From NCBI RefSeq assembly GCF_902168175.1, contig NZ_CABHOU010000095.1:248001-312000 (forward strand): a stretch of DNA of 64,000 bases. Reading direction: 5' to 3'. This stretch comes from an uncultured Chitinophaga sp. (GTDB taxonomy: Bacteria; Bacteroidota; Bacteroidia; Chitinophagales; Chitinophagaceae). Made by a program: the position numbers and the translations under genes. Below are positions 3,517 through 51,408 of this stretch, piece after piece. Below the pieces are notes generated by a model, which saw only the letters and a program-made list of their open reading frames with translations, had not been told where the DNA came from and did no database searches. The stretch's first letter is position 1; each line of letters starts with the position of its first letter.

Positions 3517-5049
3517 ATGAAAAATTCGATCTTAAAAATATCTACACTTAGTCTTGCCACGATCATGCTGGCAGGTGGCTGCTCCAAAAGCTTCCTGGAC
3601 CAGGAGATACCGGGAAGGGCACCAATCGACGGCTTTTATAAAACAGATGCTGACGCTATGCAGGCTACCAGTGCCGTGTACGACTTCTTATCGGAACACT
3701 ACAACTTCGGATGGTCCAGTATAACGCTGGTTAAAACCTTTCCTTCCGATGAAAGCAACGCGGGCGGTAGCGGCCCCGGCGACCAGCCAGGTTACCAGGC
3801 CCTCGACGATTTTACCTTCGACTCACAAAACGAAGCCGTGTTTGGAGCATGGCGGATGAGTTACTATACCATAGCCCGCGCCAACTTAGTGATCAACAAC
3901 GTAAAGCCCGAAAACACTTTGCGTAAAAGGCTTATCGCAGAAAGTAAAGCCATAAGGGCTTACAATTACCTGGAGCTGGTATCGCTCTGGGGTGATGTGC
4001 CCATTGTGCTTAAAACGATTGGTCTTAGTGAGTTCCAGCAAACACCACGTAAGCCTAAAGCAGAAGTGTATGCACAGATCGAAAAAGACCTGAACGAAGC
4101 CATTCCCGATTTGCCTTTAAAAAGCGAGTACAGTGCCGCCGATAAGTTCCGCATGTCAAAAGGCACAGCGCAGGCACTGTTAGGTAAAGCACTGTTATAC
4201 CAGGAGAAATGGGCGCCTGCTGCGGCAGCATTCGACCTGGTGATAAAATCCGGTCAGTACGACCTGGAGCCCGACTTTGCCAAAGTGTTTTCGCTGGCAG
4301 GCGAGTTTGGGTTAGAGTCATTGTTCGAAGTGAACTACATTTCCAATGTGCCTTACGACTGGGGTAATTTCCCGTGGGATAACGGCCGTGCGCTGGAAAG
4401 CAACATTCACATTCAGTTGATGGGGCCACGTGGCGATTACTACAAGAAAGCACCAGCAGATTCACTGGTGGCCGGCTGGGGTTTTAACGTACCCAAAGCC
4501 AAACTGTACGACGCCTACGTTGCTGCGGGTGATGTAAAGAGAAGAACAAATACAGTGATGTCGGTAGTAGAGTTAAAAGCAGCCGGCGGCGACTGGACGA
4601 GCCCAACCAGTTGGGATTTTGAAGGTTTCCTGCAGCGCAAGTACGGTTCGTATGGCGGGCAAACCAACAGTTCCGGCGGTGCAGTAGGCGAATTGAACTA
4701 TGGTACCAACTGGCGCCTGTTACGTTATGCCGATGTATTACTGATGGCGGCCGAAGCTTATTATCGCGCAGGCGATGAAGACCGTGCCCGCACAGAGTTA
4801 AAGAAAGTCAGGCTGCGTGCTAACCTCGGAGAAGTAACCGCTGGAGGTAATGCCCTGTTCGAAGCGATTGTGCTGGAAAGGCAACTGGAGCTGGCCTTTG
4901 AAGGCTACCGGTATGTAGACCTGGTTCGCTGGGGCAGAGCAGCTACAGAATTGGGCCCCCTGGGTTTCACAGCCAATAAAAACGAAGTGCTGCCGATTCC
5001 GAATAACGACGATCTCGTATCTGGTATAGGCCAGAACGACAATTATTAA
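3517..5049 (+). CDS. SusD/RagB-like glycan-binding lipoprotein
   Basis: Surface lipoprotein of 510 aa that caps the SusC barrel and captures glycan for import. A lipoprotein signal ends in LAGGC with the acylated Cys at residue 22. The helical TPR-like SusD fold is indicated by the SKAIRAYNYLELV and WRLLRYADVLLMAAEAYY segments and by the C-terminal block (ERQLELAFEGYRYVDLVRWG, PIPNND), which is characteristic of the family. It is translated 18 bp after SusC and is followed by a strong terminator, so SusC and SusD form one transcription unit separated from the hydrolase genes. Substrate is not evident from the protein itself; the neighbouring GH51/GH2/GH43 enzymes suggest an arabinose/galactose-containing glycan. 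Confidence 0.95.
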   Translation: MKNSILKISTLSLATIMLAGGCSKSFLDQEIPGRAPIDGFYKTDADAMQATSAVYDFLSEHYNFGWSSITLVKTFPSDESNAGGSGPGDQPGYQALDDFTFDSQNEAVFGAWRMSYYTIARANLVINNVKPENTLRKRLIAESKAIRAYNYLELVSLWGDVPIVLKTIGLSEFQQTPRKPKAEVYAQIEKDLNEAIPDLPLKSEYSAADKFRMSKGTAQALLGKALLYQEKWAPAAAAFDLVIKSGQYDLEPDFAKVFSLAGEFGLESLFEVNYISNVPYDWGNFPWDNGRALESNIHIQLMGPRGDYYKKAPADSLVAGWGFNVPKAKLYDAYVAAGDVKRRTNTVMSVVELKAAGGDWTSPTSWDFEGFLQRKYGSYGGQTNSSGGAVGELNYGTNWRLLRYADVLLMAAEAYYRAGDEDRARTELKKVRLRANLGEVTAGGNALFEAIVLERQLELAFEGYRYVDLVRWGRAATELGPLGFTANKNEVLPIPNNDDLVSGIGQNDNY

Positions 5050-18003: not shown

Positions 18004-18005
18004 TG

Positions 18006-18077
18006 TGGTCTCGGCAGGAATCGAACCTGCATCTAGGGCTTCGGAGACCCTCGTCCTATCCATTGTACTACGAGACC
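18006..18077 (-). tRNA. tRNA-Arg (anticodon CCG)
   Basis: On the - strand a complete cloverleaf can be drawn: 7-bp acceptor stem (GGTCTCG with CGAGACC), D-arm, anticodon stem AGGGT/GCCCT with loop CTCCGAA giving anticodon CCG, 4-nt variable loop and a 5-bp T-stem with TTCGATT loop. The discriminator is A and no CCA is encoded. It reads the CGG Arg codon. Confidence 0.95.
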
Positions 18078-24539: not shown

Positions 24540-24657
24540 AGTTAGTTTTTACTTGATAAACTATGCTTCCGATAAATGAAACAGACAGATAGATAACACC
24601 TTACGGCATTAATATCTCCAGCTTTTCACCCGAAAGCGCTGATTGAGAAATGTGGTC

Positions 24658-24860
24658 TGCGGCAGGTCTTCTGGCTTTCCTGCTTCCCGGGAGGGCCCTT
24701 CCCGCCCCGGCAGTCTGCCGGAACAGTGGTAAAATGGAGAGATGAATCCCCGGGAAACTTCCCGGCAAAGTATGCCGGGAGCAGGATTACAGCTACGGGG
24801 ATAGCTCCGGTTTTGCACCGGATTCCCTATTAATGTCCTGACGGACAACCGTATTCCGCC
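24658..24860 (-). promoter_or_regulatory. Cobalamin (B12) riboswitch
   Basis: Read on the - strand the element shows the conserved core GGGAATCCGGTGCAAAACCG, then CCCCGTAGCTGTAA, then a CCACTG box, and ends with AGCCAGAAGACCTGCC, the 3' signature of AdoCbl-type riboswitches. Its 3' end is about 120 nt from the btuB start, leaving room for an expression platform that hides the translation start when B12 is bound. It should repress the B12 uptake operon when the vitamin is plentiful. Confidence 0.95.
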
Positions 24861-25141
24861 GCAAACGTACAGAAAAAATAGATAATCAGGATAAAAAGAG
24901 CCGGTGTTGTAACACGCGTTTGCCTTGTTTAGATGCTGGATGTTATAAGGAGCCCCCGGGCCATCCTGTACCGGTATCCTGGGGTGGGTATAGTAAAATC
25001 GGCCATGGGATAGAGTTTGGGTATAGGACGGGGGCACTATCGGTATAGGCTCCCCGGGAGATCTGATTACTTTGTTCGATACCGCCTCATGTCAGGAAGG
25101 TGTTCGGTGTATCCATTATCATAATTCATTATCTTGTAGGC
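24861..25141. other. Divergent intergenic region between the B12 riboswitch and the APC permease gene
   Basis: 281 bp, part of a 602-bp gene-free stretch from 24540 that is otherwise the btuB leader and riboswitch. It should hold two divergent promoters. A GTG-initiated extension of the permease ORF from 25100 was not accepted. Nothing else recognisable. Confidence 0.4.
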
Positions 25142-47679: not shown

Positions 47680-48687
47680 TTACCGATACCGCTCCGCCGC
47701 CTTCACCAGCCGCTTCTCAATCCTTTTAGCGAGTAATACGGGCGACAGCACTTTCATACATTCTCCAAACCCCAGTATTTCCCGCTCCAATTCGAAGTTC
47801 ACCACCACCGTTATCTGGATCAGCAAACATGTGGCATCTTCCTTTAAAACTATTTGAGAGGTGTGCAATGGTTTGGTTTTTACGTAGGGCGCATGGTCGC
47901 CTGTTATCTCCAGTACCACCTTTTGCGCCTTGTCCTTTATTGTTTTGGTGACGCCCAATACATCGTCGAAATAGGTTTCGATGTCTACACCCGGAAGTAC
48001 TTCATATTTTTCTTTGGGCAGTTCCTGGAAGCTGATAATACGGTCGAGGGCCAGTGTTTGTAAGTCGTCGCGCTGTTTGGGACGCACGATCAGGAACCAG
48101 CGGTTTCGGTATTCCTTTAACAAATAAGGATGGAATATTTGATGGCTGGCCTGTTTTGCCCTGAATGATTTGTACTCGATCAGTAGTACCTGCCTGTTCA
48201 GGATGTGCTGGTACAGTGGGGCAATGTGTTCCAGGCCTTTTAAAAGGCGGTTGTTCTCAAACTGTATAAAGCTGGTGTGGTGGGTCGATTTATGAAGATT
48301 GTTTTCCAGCCGCGCGATCATCTCGCTCATTTCTTCAAAATAGCTGAAACCGTTGAATTGCTTTAAAACGCCTACGATCTCCTTCATCTTATCTACATCT
48401 ACTTCATTGATGGGCGCATTGGTAATACTATAGTTTTCGTTGTCATAGGTGTAAAATTTTTTATCCTTAACGATGATGGGTGCGTTGTAGCCAAGTTTGT
48501 CGCTGCGCATCAGTTGTATGTCCGCCTGTATCGTCCGGCGGCTCACACCGGATGTTATGCCCTCGTACTCGTACAGCACTTCCGCCACTTTCTCCATGAT
48601 TTGTTCCAGCGTCCATTTACGGTGACGCTTGCGCAGGCACTCATCAATCGTTTTATAGCGTATAAGCGCGAGTTTGTTTACAGACAT
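47680..48687 (-). CDS. WYL-domain transcriptional regulator
   Basis: 335-aa regulator with an N-terminal winged helix-turn-helix (KLALIRYKTIDECLRKRH, ISRRTIQADIQ-type segment SGVSRRTIQADIQLMR) and a WYL ligand-sensing domain in the second half (VLLIEYKSF, HPYLLKEYRNRWFLIV), followed by a C-terminal extension. WYL domains bind nucleic acid or nucleotide ligands and often control stress, DNA-damage or phage-defence genes. It is divergent from the tRNA-like RNA and TerD-like gene, which makes these its likely targets. Confidence 0.9.
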   Translation of the reverse strand: MSVNKLALIRYKTIDECLRKRHRKWTLEQIMEKVAEVLYEYEGITSGVSRRTIQADIQLMRSDKLGYNAPIIVKDKKFYTYDNENYSITNAPINEVDVDKMKEIVGVLKQFNGFSYFEEMSEMIARLENNLHKSTHHTSFIQFENNRLLKGLEHIAPLYQHILNRQVLLIEYKSFRAKQASHQIFHPYLLKEYRNRWFLIVRPKQRDDLQTLALDRIISFQELPKEKYEVLPGVDIETYFDDVLGVTKTIKDKAQKVVLEITGDHAPYVKTKPLHTSQIVLKEDATCLLIQITVVVNFELEREILGFGECMKVLSPVLLAKRIEKRLVKAAERYR

Positions 48688-48950
48688 ATGGCCGTTTTAG
48701 TTAGATAAAGGTACATATCCGAATTTAACTGCGCAATATAGCTGCGTAGTTATGAAAGAATGTGGGTGGATTTTTCTCTCAACACAGTGATGTTCAATCT
48801 ATATAAAACTTTTTTTAAATTTTTTCAAACTGCGCAGATGGGTTGCGCTGATGTGCCCGCATATTTGTGATGTCAAACGGCGGTCAGGAATTAGTTACTT
48901 CTATATCACCATTTACGGACTTACTTGTTCAATTACCGCAGTTTGCAAAT
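48688..48950. promoter_or_regulatory. Divergent promoter region with operator-like inverted repeat
   Basis: An imperfect palindrome lies at 48727-48751: AACTGCGCA at 48727-48735 and TGCGTAGTT at 48743-48751. A second copy of AACTGCGCA is at 48828-48836. The WYL regulator is a likely binder, by position only. A T-rich tract (about 48800-48825) separates the two sites. No promoter was assigned with confidence. Confidence 0.45.
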
Positions 48951-48974
48951 GAAGGCAGTAGCTCAATTGGTTAG
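48870..48974 (+). CDS. Short ORF overlapping the tRNA-like element (possible leader peptide or gene remnant)
   Basis: 34-aa ORF starting at ATG 48870 (or GTG 48867) and reading MSNGGQELVTSISPFTDLL then VQLPQFANEGSSSIG. Its stop codon TAG at 48972 lies in the D-arm of the tRNA-like RNA. Its codons for QLPQF match those at the start of the TerD-like protein (MQLPQFLRS) in the same codon register. It could be a leader peptide whose translation opens or disturbs the RNA, or the original 5' end of the downstream gene cut off by an insertion. Low confidence that it is translated. Confidence 0.3.
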   Translation: MSNGGQELVTSISPFTDLLVQLPQFANEGSSSIG

Positions 48975-49146
48975 AGCACGGAATTAAGTTTTAGCATTAT
49001 CCTTCCGGGTCAATTAAAACTTACTTCTCATAGGGATTCCGGGGTTGCTGGTTCAAATCCAGCCTGCCTTCCTTCAAAAAATATTTACGGTCAAGTATCG
49101 CTTACTTCAAATCATTAAGGAAAAAGCAATGCAATTACCGCAATTT
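48930..49146. repeat. 15-bp direct repeats flanking the tRNA-like element
   Basis: CAATTACCGCAGTTT at 48930-48944 and CAATTACCGCAATTT at 49132-49146 match at 14 of 15 bases and are 202 bp apart. A shorter match, ATTTACGG, occurs at 48911 and 49083. The repeats bracket the tRNA-like RNA and could be a target-site duplication or the ends of a duplicated segment. Confidence 0.7.
48951..49071 (+). ncRNA. tRNA-like RNA with an expanded anticodon arm
   Basis: The ends fold as a near-perfect tRNA: acceptor stem of 7 bp (48952-48958 with 49064-49070), extended to 8 by G48951-C49071; D-arm GCTC/GAGC (48961-48964 with 48974-48977); 5-nt variable loop; T-arm GCTGG/CCAGC with loop TTCAAAT (49047-49063). 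The anticodon arm is 63 nt rather than 17. It has an outer stem CGGAAT/ATTCCG (48979-48984 with 49036-49041) and an inner 9-bp hairpin TAAGTTTTA/TAAAACTTA (48985-48993 with 49015-49023). No CCA is encoded. It is too short for a group I intron. It may be an intron-bearing tRNA, a tRNA mimic or a relic. It lies on the same strand as the TerD-like gene, 57 bp before its start. Confidence 0.65.
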
Positions 49147-51408
49147 TTAAGATCAGTTATCATGAAACAATTATTACAGGTTAGTCTTCGCCAGCAGGCC
49201 ATCTATGTGCCCAATGCGGCCATCAAAACAAACCCACATACACTTACCCCTGTTACCGCCTGCCTGGTGGCCAACATCGCGAAGCTCGGCTTCGGCGTGT
49301 CGGAAGCCCTGTTGTATGCGCTTGAATATACCAGCACCGCATTTCATGAAGAACTGCTGGAGTTATTAAAAGAAGTTACCGGCACCAATAAAAACTGGAC
49401 GCCGTTGGTAAAAGGTTGGAATAACCCAACACACGAAACGTTGGGAGATCACCTCGTTACCTGGTTTGTGAACGCGTTCCGTACTTCGGATAAGGCGCCT
49501 GGTGTTGAATTGCCTTGCGGGCATTTAATTCCTGAAGGTACTTTTCCACTGGAGCGATATAACGGCTGCCCGTTTTGCGGAACACCGTTCATAGCCGGGG
49601 ATATAGAAAACTACGGACAAAACAGTAAGGTCAAAGTGCTGGAACTTTGGACGGATAAAGAGCTGGACTCCATGCTGAATGCCTTACTGGCTTCCCGTAC
49701 CGCTCTTGATGCGACACAGCGTGAAAACCTGCAGGTACTGTTGCAGTACCTGCCAGCGCCAACCGGAAGCATTGCAATGAAGGAAACGCTGATGCTGGTT
49801 ATCGATATGTATATCGCCGAAGGAAGCGACGATAAGGCGCAGGCGTTATTTAATTCTCCTGCAGATATCATGCGTTACCTGTGGTATAAGCATACCGGTA
49901 ATCTGCAGTTGGTGCAACCCAAAGTGATAGTGGAGCGTACCGCAAAAAACAACGGTCATTTACATAAGCCATTGGATAAAAGAAAGGTTGCTGCACAGGA
50001 GGCTAAGGAAAAGCTGAAACTGAAATACAATCGTACCGAATGCCTGCGTGTAGCCAAATGGTTGAACGGCCTGGATATGGATACTGAAAAGATGTGTGAG
50101 ATCATGCACCCTAAAAGGGCGATGTGGACACGCTTCATCCGTGCCCTGCGTTTAATTGAATACGGTAAACGTAAAGATTTCGAACGACTTGGTGCTTTGA
50201 TGGAGATGTTCTGTAAAGAAAAGTACGACGTGTGGCAGGGATGGGTAAACCATTTCAGGGTAGGATTGGATGCGGATAACGCGTTCGAGCTGTTGAAACA
50301 GCGCCCGGGTATGTTTGCGCGTTCCCTGTTTTCTAACATGTTGTGGTTTGGCGAAGGTGCTGCGGTGCCTGCCTTTGCGGAAGTAGCCGGTAAAGTGCCT
50401 GCGCGCCTGCTCATAACACTGGCCATGTATGCAGATAACTACTTCGATAAAGATGTACAACGTACCGTGAAGCCTTTGGGAGGTGTAAGTAAAGCAATAC
50501 CAGGCAACCAACTGTTATCTATTTACACGGACGAGCAACTGACCGCCATGAAAACGGCCGTAACCGAAATGTGTATGAAGGAAATGGGCCGCCGTTTTGC
50601 ATCCGCTACTAATGAAGCGCGTACCATTTTTATAGATCCGCTGCTGTTCAAAATGCCATTGGCTATCGGTGACCGTGCCGAAACGGTGCAGGATTTACCG
50701 TCTGCCCTGATGGGAGCGCGTTTCCCTGTGGAGGGTGATGCTGTTCGGTTGTTTATGCAATGGGGTACAGGGTTGCCCGCACAGCACCTGGATATGGACC
50801 TGAGCGCCGTTATCGTATATGCAGATAAAAAAGACGTATGCTCTTATTCTAACCTGGTAACCACAGGGTGTAAGCATAGCGGCGATATTCGTCAGGTCCC
50901 GGATAAGATAGGTACGGCGGAGTACATAGAGTTGGAACTGAACACGCTGGTAAAAGCAGATGCGCGATACGTCGTGTTTACCTGCAATGCTTTCAGCAAT
51001 GGTGCCATCACGCCTCAGCTCGCAGTAGGATGGATGAACAGCAAGTACCCGATGAAGATATCTGCAACTACAGGTGTGGCGTACGATCCGGCTTGTGTAC
51101 AGCACCAGGTACGTATAACGGGCGGACTTACGAAAGGATTGGTATTCGGCGTACTGGACGTGAAACAGCGCGAAGTGATTTGGCTGGAGATGCCTTTCAG
51201 CGGACAATTGGGAGGAGATTTCAATATGAAGGCAGTGAATGGAATGTTAGCCCGGCTGGATGGAAAGATGAGTATTGGTGCATTGTTATCGGTGAAAGCC
51301 GAGGCGCAGCAACTCGTAGTTGTTAACGACGAAGCTGCGGCTGATGAAGTGTACAACCAGGTGTGGGCCCGCGACGCAGCTGCCGTTACTCAACTGTTGA
51401 TCGACTAA
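49129..51408 (+). CDS. Large protein with N-terminal zinc finger and C-terminal TerD-like domain
   Basis: 759-aa protein of uncertain function. An N-terminal helical region is followed by a zinc-binding motif with C130, H132, C147 and C150 (PCGHLIPEG ... CPFCGTPF), a long helical middle (about 300-540), and a C-terminal domain resembling TerD: DMDLSAVIVY at 553-562, HSGD at 583-586 and a YVVFTCNAF strand. TerD domains bind calcium and occur in stress and phage-resistance operons. ATG 49129 has AGGA eight bases upstream; ATG 49162 (MKQLLQVSL) is an alternative, and the open frame continues upstream into the tRNA-like RNA. It probably shares a transcript with that RNA. Confidence 0.7.
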   Translation: MQLPQFLRSVIMKQLLQVSLRQQAIYVPNAAIKTNPHTLTPVTACLVANIAKLGFGVSEALLYALEYTSTAFHEELLELLKEVTGTNKNWTPLVKGWNNPTHETLGDHLVTWFVNAFRTSDKAPGVELPCGHLIPEGTFPLERYNGCPFCGTPFIAGDIENYGQNSKVKVLELWTDKELDSMLNALLASRTALDATQRENLQVLLQYLPAPTGSIAMKETLMLVIDMYIAEGSDDKAQALFNSPADIMRYLWYKHTGNLQLVQPKVIVERTAKNNGHLHKPLDKRKVAAQEAKEKLKLKYNRTECLRVAKWLNGLDMDTEKMCEIMHPKRAMWTRFIRALRLIEYGKRKDFERLGALMEMFCKEKYDVWQGWVNHFRVGLDADNAFELLKQRPGMFARSLFSNMLWFGEGAAVPAFAEVAGKVPARLLITLAMYADNYFDKDVQRTVKPLGGVSKAIPGNQLLSIYTDEQLTAMKTAVTEMCMKEMGRRFASATNEARTIFIDPLLFKMPLAIGDRAETVQDLPSALMGARFPVEGDAVRLFMQWGTGLPAQHLDMDLSAVIVYADKKDVCSYSNLVTTGCKHSGDIRQVPDKIGTAEYIELELNTLVKADARYVVFTCNAFSNGAITPQLAVGWMNSKYPMKISATTGVAYDPACVQHQVRITGGLTKGLVFGVLDVKQREVIWLEMPFSGQLGGDFNMKAVNGMLARLDGKMSIGALLSVKAEAQQLVVVNDEAAADEVYNQVWARDAAAVTQLLID

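Follow-up and report, generated by a model that had tools for sequence, protein, structure and literature searches.

A conserved tRNA-like leader RNA with repeated hairpins upstream of RING-TerD-type genes in Bacteroidota

We analyzed a 64,000-nucleotide (nt) stretch from an uncultured Chitinophaga sp. (assembly GCF_902168175.1, contig NZ_CABHOU010000095.1, positions 248,001 to 312,000 of the forward strand; hereafter, the window) that contains a gene for a 748-amino acid (aa) protein combining a RING-like cluster with a TerD-like C-terminal region. The gene is preceded by a leader that includes a tRNA-like RNA and copies of a hairpin, and a gene for a WYL-domain transcriptional regulator lies upstream in the opposite orientation (Table 1). 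The first-pass annotation, made from the sequence alone, had noticed a tRNA-shaped RNA between two 15-bp direct repeats, and this element is real: the repeats, CAATTACCGCAGTTT (48930-48944) and CAATTACCGCAATTT (49132-49146), are identical at 14 of the 15 positions with a spacing of 202, no other direct-repeat family being reported between 48400 and 49800, and the Rfam tRNA model matches positions 48952-49071 with 53.3 bits (gathering score 29, E-value 1.2e-8). At E-values up to 1, the Rfam scan of 48700-49250 yielded only this tRNA and one sub-threshold microRNA match. The acceptor stem of the tRNA-like unit consists of 7 bp, and an equally good predicted fold was obtained for 1 of 200 shuffled sequences (z -3.07). 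The standard ARAGORN search did not report the unit at this place, whereas ARAGORN with introns allowed recovered it, the anticodon loop being enlarged by an insert of 46 nt.

Table 1. Features of the regulator gene, the leader and the RING-TerD-type gene (window coordinates)
Feature	Coordinates	Strand	Remarks
WYL-domain transcriptional regulator, divergent	47680..48687	-	Pfam WYL 1.5e-11, WCX 2.6e-8; probable controller of the leader
Operator-like inverted repeat TGCGCA-N7-TGCGT	48730..48747	.	Motif common to the leaders of relatives
Second operator-like inverted repeat TGCGCA-N7-TGCGC	48831..48848	.	Adjoins the promoter
Probable -7 promoter element CATATTTG	48860..48867	+	Inexact relative to TAnnTTTG
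Hairpin copy 1	48872..48946	+	5' strand 48882-48901 GGTCAGGAATTAGTTACTTC, 3' strand 48931-48937 AATTACC; contains the first 15-bp repeat
tRNA-like RNA	48952..49072	+	Intact tRNA core positions and acceptor, D and T arms; hairpin copy 2 takes the place of the anticodon loop
Hairpin copy 2, strand order reversed	48987..49027	+	In the anticodon loop; AGTTTTAG-CATTATC..GGTCAA-TTAAAACT-TACTTC
Hairpin copy 3	49089..49139	+	5' strand 49089-49108, 3' strand 49133-49139; contains the second 15-bp repeat; ends 22 nt before the start codon
Gene for 748-aa protein	49162..51408	+	Helical N-terminus, RING-like Cys/His cluster, alpha-helical middle, TerD-like C-terminus
RING-like cluster C119, H121, C136, C139 (748-aa numbering)	49516..49578	+	Invariant in 34 aligned sequences

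Homologs of the 748-aa protein were detected in 9 of the 147 family genomes and 11 of the 395 phylum genomes sampled (the genome of the window is included in both), as well as at 43 named loci, mostly from Flavobacterium but also from Chitinophaga, Aquimarina, Saprospiraceae, Bacteroidales and others. After removal of L065, where the contig begins 51 bases before the gene, of L011 and L012 with a broken gene (genome G108), and of the duplicates L001, L066 and L068, the set comprised 63 Bacteroidota leaders, near-duplicates included, that form 54 clusters at 95%; L013-L022 are presumed to come from Flavobacterium, and the gene start is approximate in L087, which has no copy of the hairpin motif. 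An intron-type tRNA mimic is present in 58 of the 63 leaders and in 50 of the 54 clusters, at the same place with respect to the gene, which bears out the alternative reading of the first-pass annotation, namely, that the RNA is a 5' leader element. The hairpin motif lies inside 67 of the 68 tRNA-like units, the exception being the second call in L024. Nine leaders contain two units, and six (L005, L009, L022, L031, L050 and L052) contain long units of 198-234 nt, with extra motif copies nested in the insert. Apart from the units' own T arms, 18 T-arm-like hairpins were detected in 17 leaders, against 0.35 expected.

To assess covariation, we aligned 24 of the 68 units (25 passed the redundancy and length filters, and L074 was excluded). 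Changes on both sides were observed for 17 of the 29 base pairs, 97.4% of the cells were paired, and none of 500 shuffles reached any of the observed values; sliding the alignment by one column reduced the pairing to 46-52%. The nucleotides U8, A14, G18, G19, U54, U55, C56 and A58 are identical in all 24 units, and position 57 is G in 23 and A in one.

A covariance model built from these units, R1, was then used under strict filters, with the best 25 or 9 first-look candidates scored per genome. The units in the leaders score between 90 and 118 bits (103.1 bits for the window unit), and the 73-75-nt matches, taken as ordinary tRNAs, score about 60 or less. Matches of at least 90 bits were obtained in 7 of the 147 family genomes and 10 of the 395 phylum genomes, in each case exclusively among those that carry the gene (9 and 11, respectively). 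The gene-bearing genomes missed by R1 (G085, G142 and G427) all hold long nested units. The leader RNA is under strong structural selection and is tied to one protein family and, as discussed below, often to repair genes.

The hairpin itself follows a plan seen in the leaders of 23 homologs: GGUCAA and UUACUUC flank a stem strand of roughly 8 bases, and a variable loop leads to its complement, which is followed by AAUUAYC. The window leader carries three copies (48882-48937, the strand-reversed copy within the tRNA-like unit, and 49089-49139), and the two 15-bp repeats correspond to the 3' strands in copies 1 and 3; the predicted fold of the leader was equaled by 2 of 200 shuffles (z -2.38). 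One to seven copies are present in 62 of the 63 leaders, with 249 sense and no antisense matches to a stricter pattern. Of the 270 motif copies, 69% have a partner strand scoring 6 or more, compared to 9.5% when stems were swapped and 0.9% when letters were shuffled. In 60 of the 63 leaders, the last 3' strand begins 22-35 nt upstream of the ATG. The exact sequence GGTCAA-N7-TTACTTC occurs twice in the genome of the window, both times inside this leader; with two mismatches allowed, there are 137 matches versus 349 for the reversed control. A search of 390 genomes with the two-strand pattern matched all 11 gene-bearing genomes, including one match in G423 on a contig other than that of the gene, and 8 other genomes with a single match each, whereas the reversed control gave 6 matches.

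The open reading frame of 759 aa opens at 49129, in a frame that remains open further upstream, and the ATG at 49162 (MKQLL) aligns with the starts of the homologs. The aligned homologs share this start position (MKxxLL or equivalent; L065 is truncated), the starts having been chosen by the pattern around the expected position or, for L058, set by hand. Among 60 leaders, the motif is spread over all three frames with respect to the gene (36, 12 and 11 leaders; one has no motif there), an in-frame stop codon is found at most 22 nt upstream of the ATG in 45, and an alternative in-frame upstream start exists in 12, including the window. Given the occurrence of the motif in all frames, the upstream stops and the shared aligned start, the gene most likely starts at 49162. 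The first-pass annotation had read the peptide QLPQF as the trace of a coding sequence; QLPQF can indeed be read at both repeat copies, and an upstream frame with a GTG start exists (48867-48974), but its coding nature did not hold up, the motif being found in all three frames in relatives, and QLPQF is a by-product of the hairpin strand rather than a piece of protein. That annotation had also envisaged a local accident, with homologs that start at MKQLL and lack a tRNA-like leader; the homologs do start there, but the tRNA-like leader is conserved, not missing.

The AlphaFold2 model of the 748-aa protein has a predicted local distance difference test score (pLDDT) of 80.9. In the Foldseek search, the structure 2qng, which we take to be a TerD-family protein, was matched with probability 1.00 but an E-value of 0.054, and no match reached an E-value of 0.001. 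The NCBIfam family NF041916 gave a partial match (160 bits against a cut-off of 600, 7.9e-47, with the best stretch at residues 368-733 of the 759-aa frame), and the match to Prok-RING_4 is below the cut-off of that family. Together with the names given to the Deinococcus and Vibrio homologs, the fold match and the partial similarity to NF041916 are in line with the label 'TerD-like' assigned in the first pass. No homology of this protein to Ro60/TROVE was detected in comparisons that a distant kinship might escape: a narrow-profile hhalign comparison yielded a probability of 0.14% and an E-value of 0.42, the Pfam TROVE family produced no match at E-values up to 0.1, and Ro60 does not appear among the best 50 of the 1536 Foldseek matches. 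Two scans of viral_contigs revealed no viral relatives.

Operator-like inverted repeats of the form TRCGCA-N7-TGCGY are present in 50 of the 63 leaders, and the form TRCGCA-N7-TGC(G/A)Y followed by TTTG 12-17 nt downstream is also present in 50 of the 63 (not necessarily the same ones). A looser form occurs upstream of the first hairpin in 51 of the 63 leaders, versus a fraction of 0.0016 of shuffled leaders. The two exact copies in the window are the only ones in its 64 kb; with one mismatch allowed, there are 8 matches against 5.1 expected, so the looser matches in the window are meaningless. Among the 52 operator-bearing leaders, 49 contain TTTG 8-25 nt past the operator, and among those listed, the distance is 14-15 nt in 17 of 20. 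The Bacteroidota -7 promoter consensus is TAnnTTTG, and exact matches to it are found in only 5 of the 63 leaders. From this arrangement, transcription of the leader would start at about 48872, directly before hairpin 1. A homolog of the WYL-domain protein is encoded divergently upstream in 26 of the 40 loci with at least 3.5 kb of upstream sequence and in all five of the longer loci from the same family; of eight same-family loci, seven have the WYL gene, the contig of L009 being too short to tell. We infer that the WYL-domain protein binds the operator-like repeat.

Genes for RNA repair enzymes are recurrent neighbors of the RING-TerD gene. RtcB is encoded downstream in 17 of 41 loci and upstream in L055, L056 and L058, and RlaP is encoded downstream in 2 of 41; overall, RtcB or RlaP is present at 19 of the 38 homologous loci for which both flanks are available. 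The five longer same-family loci include WYL in five cases, RlaP in three, RtcB in one and Band-7 in one. The locus L194 (genome G114) consists of the leader, RING-TerD, two RlaP genes and RtcB, and L192 (G101) consists of the leader, RING-TerD, Band_7, an exonuclease and two RlaP genes, the last of which was detected by tblastn only. RlaP has been described as a nucleotidyltransferase acting together with RNA ligases, and ROT/TROVE proteins as repair platforms with a tRNA-like partner (PMC7824862). Elsewhere in the window, we observed an ordinary tRNA-Arg (ccg) gene (18005-18077, minus strand) and a cobalamin riboswitch (24644-24868, minus strand, 81.1 bits).

R1 matches of 58-72 bits in G157, G415, G404, G448 and G231 led to a second set of tRNA-like units, with the hairpin word GUUCCUAU, that precede the gene for a protein of about 590 aa (L162:4105-5892, L163, L164, L165 and L166; in L165, the gene is split into two frames). 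The L162 copy of this protein has no Pfam match. All five loci possess an operator-like repeat and a motif word about 47-61 nt before the ATG. Three of them have a WYL gene, with one type of RtcB encoded immediately upstream and RlaP at some distance downstream; in the remaining two, only a distant RtcB relative was detected. The WYL protein of this second system is 47% identical to that of the window. The protein was found in two of 198 sampled genomes (G157 and G231), both of which also contain the RNA. It is probably a distant relative without the RING, although the comparison with the RING-TerD profile using hhalign (E-value 3.8e-4, probability 36%) is no more than suggestive.

A further tRNA-like RNA is located in L192 (4552-4660, minus strand). 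This RNA resembles a permuted tRNA of the YrlA kind (39.1 bits, E-value 6.8e-7, gathering score 69), overlaps a tRNA match, has an operator-like repeat upstream (4960-4978) and the Band_7 gene downstream, and shares the locus with the RING-TerD gene. A second such RNA belongs to Rhodobacter phage RcXuper (L075), where a further motif word (2448) in the leader adjoins a permuted tRNA (Rfam YrlA, 40.7 bits, E-value 4.6e-7, gathering score 69); the predicted fold shows a T arm, a closed acceptor stem and a D arm, and 12 of 200 shuffles are equally good (z -1.77). These sub-threshold YrlA matches at two related loci and the repair genes described above strengthen the hint of a connection with RNA repair that was offered in the first-pass annotation.

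Outside Bacteroidota, homologs with about 24-29% identity are encoded on plasmids and in phages. One strong hairpin (GGGCGG-CUCC..-helix-UCCUUCU) is common to 7 of the 8 Actinomycete leaders, from Streptomyces, Embleya and Kitasatospora (L086 lacks it), at 85-303 nt from the start used, two of the starts being approximate. Hairpins of the same plan are present in three of four Deinococcus leaders (L073, L083 and L084; the fourth, L085, does not match the word pattern) and in RcXuper. For 11 leaders, chance origin of these hairpins was rejected, with none of 30 shuffles reaching the observed values in each case; in the fecal phage L076, 4 motif words were found against 0.2 expected, but the best hairpin was matched by 4 of 30 shuffles. 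Because hairpin leaders without the mimic occur in other phyla, the hairpin appears to be a more general feature than the mimic. No TROVE gene was found in six records from phages and plasmids, RcXuper among them. In RcXuper (L075:1999-2570), matches to transfer-messenger RNA (tmRNA; alpha and permuted) are followed by the YrlA-like RNA, UNCUUC hairpins and the RING-TerD homolog. In all three phage stretches (L075, L076 and L088), tRNA genes precede the homolog by no more than about 2 kb, and two of these stretches have tmRNA matches. The Variovorax plasmid homolog (L070:1969-4947) and rtcR are oriented divergently and separated by three small genes, and this homolog has no hairpin leader.

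Taken together, the leader RNA is conserved, linked to the gene, and accompanied by a shared operator-like repeat and by repeated linkage to RNA repair genes. The explanation that we favor, with a probability only slightly above even, is that this RNA is a tRNA-mimicking partner of the RING-TerD protein in the repair of tRNA damage, an arrangement comparable to YrlA-Ro60 but without Ro60. A transcript that is probably controlled by the WYL-domain protein would open with bulged hairpins and the tRNA mimic and run on into the gene for the RING/alpha-helical/TerD-like protein. In the simplest account, the encoded protein would bind the hairpins, and the mimic, with an intact core but unable to decode, would make the complex tRNA-shaped. 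This ribonucleoprotein (RNP) could then serve as a scaffold, sensor or recruiting platform upon tRNA damage, with the repair itself carried out by the RtcB ligase and the RlaP nucleotidyltransferase. Maturation of the 5' and 3' ends, as in tRNAs, may release the mimic, and the hairpin next to the start codon may allow surplus protein to switch off its own translation. The broader proposal of an undescribed cross-phylum class of protein-partner RNA, in which (U)UNCUUC-type hairpins precede RING-TerD proteins from Streptomyces to phage, were grafted into tRNA mimics in Bacteroidota, and have counterparts in a sister protein family and in Band-7 with their own mimics and the same kind of operator, is a tentative one, which we hold to be somewhat more likely false than true.

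Two explanations treat the arrangement as accidental. The first-pass annotation had suggested that a 202-bp insertion or duplication split the 5' end of the gene, and the 14/15 repeats and the in-frame joining upon removal of one unit are compatible with this; however, the repeats are strands of a conserved, recurring RNA hairpin, so the split is unsupported, the homologs start at the MKQLL position, the upstream motif is mostly out of frame with the gene, and relatives share the layout. The search for other copies of the segment in the genome of the window, suggested at the same time, returned nothing beyond a 22-base match to the T arm, inside a cluster of normal tRNAs; this single-copy status and the presence of the element in most of the relatives' leaders equally tell against a mobile insertion with target-site duplication. 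We give this origin practically no credence. That an ordinary intron-bearing tRNA gene happens to precede the gene is likewise highly improbable. The Rfam match, the three arms and the core positions fit such a gene, and ARAGORN provides anticodons once introns are allowed, but these anticodons vary among the leaders (Pro, Gln, Thr, Asn, Lys, stop and others), and the insert is, almost without exception, the leader's own hairpin, linked to one gene. A functional intron-bearing tRNA was accordingly rejected: there is no seven-base anticodon loop with a consistent anticodon, the loop being replaced by the hairpin.

The most serious competitor is the possibility that the leader is only a cis-acting, autogenous or tRNA-sensing element, with no separate functional RNA, where the protein or a tRNA-processing enzyme acting on the mimic and the hairpins would block or open translation, and damaged tRNAs would compete and thereby turn the gene on. 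Cis control is favored by the fixed distance between the last hairpin strand and the ATG and finds a parallel in the position of the motif word at all second-system loci; the motif is found on the gene strand only, and the R1 matches of at least 90 bits are confined to gene-bearing genomes. The thrS operator is a tRNA-mimicking precedent. Another is yjdF, described as a tRNA-like leader that controls translation (PMC9142559). Nevertheless, up to seven hairpins, two mimics and nested units exceed the needs of an operator, the full acceptor stem and core positions are retained, the Actinomycete hairpin lies at widely different distances from the start, and YrlA-like RNAs occur at related loci; a separate partner RNA is favored by the number of modules, the repeated and nested units and the YrlA-like cousins. 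We consider control in cis alone to be less likely than not, though a substantial possibility; a partner RNA and cis control may both hold. There is a smaller chance still that the mimic is a decoy or bait, which, lacking an anticodon, would occupy or detect enzymes that cut or modify tRNAs, its cleavage signaling damage. The replaced anticodon loop within an otherwise tRNA-like molecule and the repair gene setting agree with this, and the idea of a competitive inhibitor has been put forward for YrlA (PMC7790460); but a decoy leaves unexplained the hairpins without tRNA modules and the mimic-less hairpin leaders in other phyla, and YrlA fragments were not detected in Salmonella (PMC7790460).

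Several observations weigh against a partner RNA in tRNA repair, apart from the constant spacing of the last hairpin, which speaks for cis control. Neither RtcB nor RlaP is encoded at 19 of the 38 loci with both flanks, and these counts are dominated by Flavobacterium; the gene in the window adjoins neither, and an RtcB gene of the same type in that genome lies about 106 kb away, in 14-kb surroundings that contain no operator repeat. No tRNA mimic was obtained in 5 of the 63 leaders (L055, L058, L062, L063 and L087), although a degraded one is discernible by eye in L058, and among the 24 leaders outside the Flavobacterium set, the mimic is present in 19 and the operator repeat in 15. The homologs from Variovorax, Niallia, Streptomyces (L086) and Rhodococcus phage Weasels2 have no hairpin. 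Finally, since scoring was limited to the best 25 or 9 candidates of each genome, a copy of the RNA in a gene-less genome could have escaped detection.

What is known of RNA repair in bacteria comes mainly from RtcAB and Ro60/Y RNA, and the closest known counterpart of the system described here is YrlA/Y RNA with Ro60 (Rsr) in rtc operons, where a tRNA-mimicking RNA likewise accompanies a presumed protein partner in RNA repair loci; permuted YrlA-like modules even occur in the RcXuper leader and before Band-7 in L192. Unlike YrlA, the window RNA is not permuted and carries the motif in the anticodon loop, and the YrlA model RF02553 has no match in window positions 48700-49250 at E-values up to 1, with below-gathering matches only in L075 and L192. 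Unlike Ro60, the partner protein shows no detectable TROVE kinship, and no TROVE (PF05731) gene was found in the genome of the window (G000). The bulged GGU-C-AA helix bears some likeness to the Ro-binding helix of Y RNAs, to which we attach no weight. The abstract of a 2016 review by Burroughs and Aravind reportedly names a novel tRNA-like molecule associated with SPFH/Band-7 proteins, so part of the system may already be known. That RNA is reported to be similarly a tRNA-like RNA in loci with ligase, RlaP and Band-7, and L192 combines in one locus a Band-7 gene that has a separate tRNA-like RNA and a RING-TerD gene preceded by a leader of the window type; the RNA on the Band-7 side is YrlA-like and permuted, whereas the window type has the canonical order with GGUCAA/UUACUUC hairpins. 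The MXAN_6230/SCO0854 RING family (NF041916) is homologous, and in Streptomyces, the genes for proteins so named follow a leader with a hairpin of the plan described above, but at 160 bits of the 600 required, the window protein is a homolog rather than a member by that rule, and the identity of the non-Bacteroidota homologs is only about 24-29%. The yjdF model, which presumably is part of Rfam, has no match in the window leader at E-values up to 1. The yjdF riboswitch is also a tRNA-like fold in an mRNA leader and differs in being a small-molecule aptamer (PMC9142559). A full-text search found no paper on SCO0854 or MXAN_6230, and among the papers listed for tRNA-like RNAs, TerD and the repair genes, none describes this RNA, as judged by title and the start of the abstract. 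Rfam has no family for the whole leader, and in the relatives' leaders, it detects nothing but tRNA at the gathering score.

Routine annotation can miss such a leader, with standard ARAGORN being silent and Rfam reporting only a tRNA, and the leader offers a testable case of an mRNA leader that holds an almost complete tRNA. To our knowledge, TerD-type proteins are tied to tellurite and phage stress and have no clear molecular function. If the interpretation that we favor is correct, this widespread type of protein would acquire a candidate ligand in the tRNA mimic and a candidate role in tRNA repair, and if the broader class is real, several tRNA-mimicking RNPs would serve tRNA repair within a single WYL-type regulon, with no need for Ro60.

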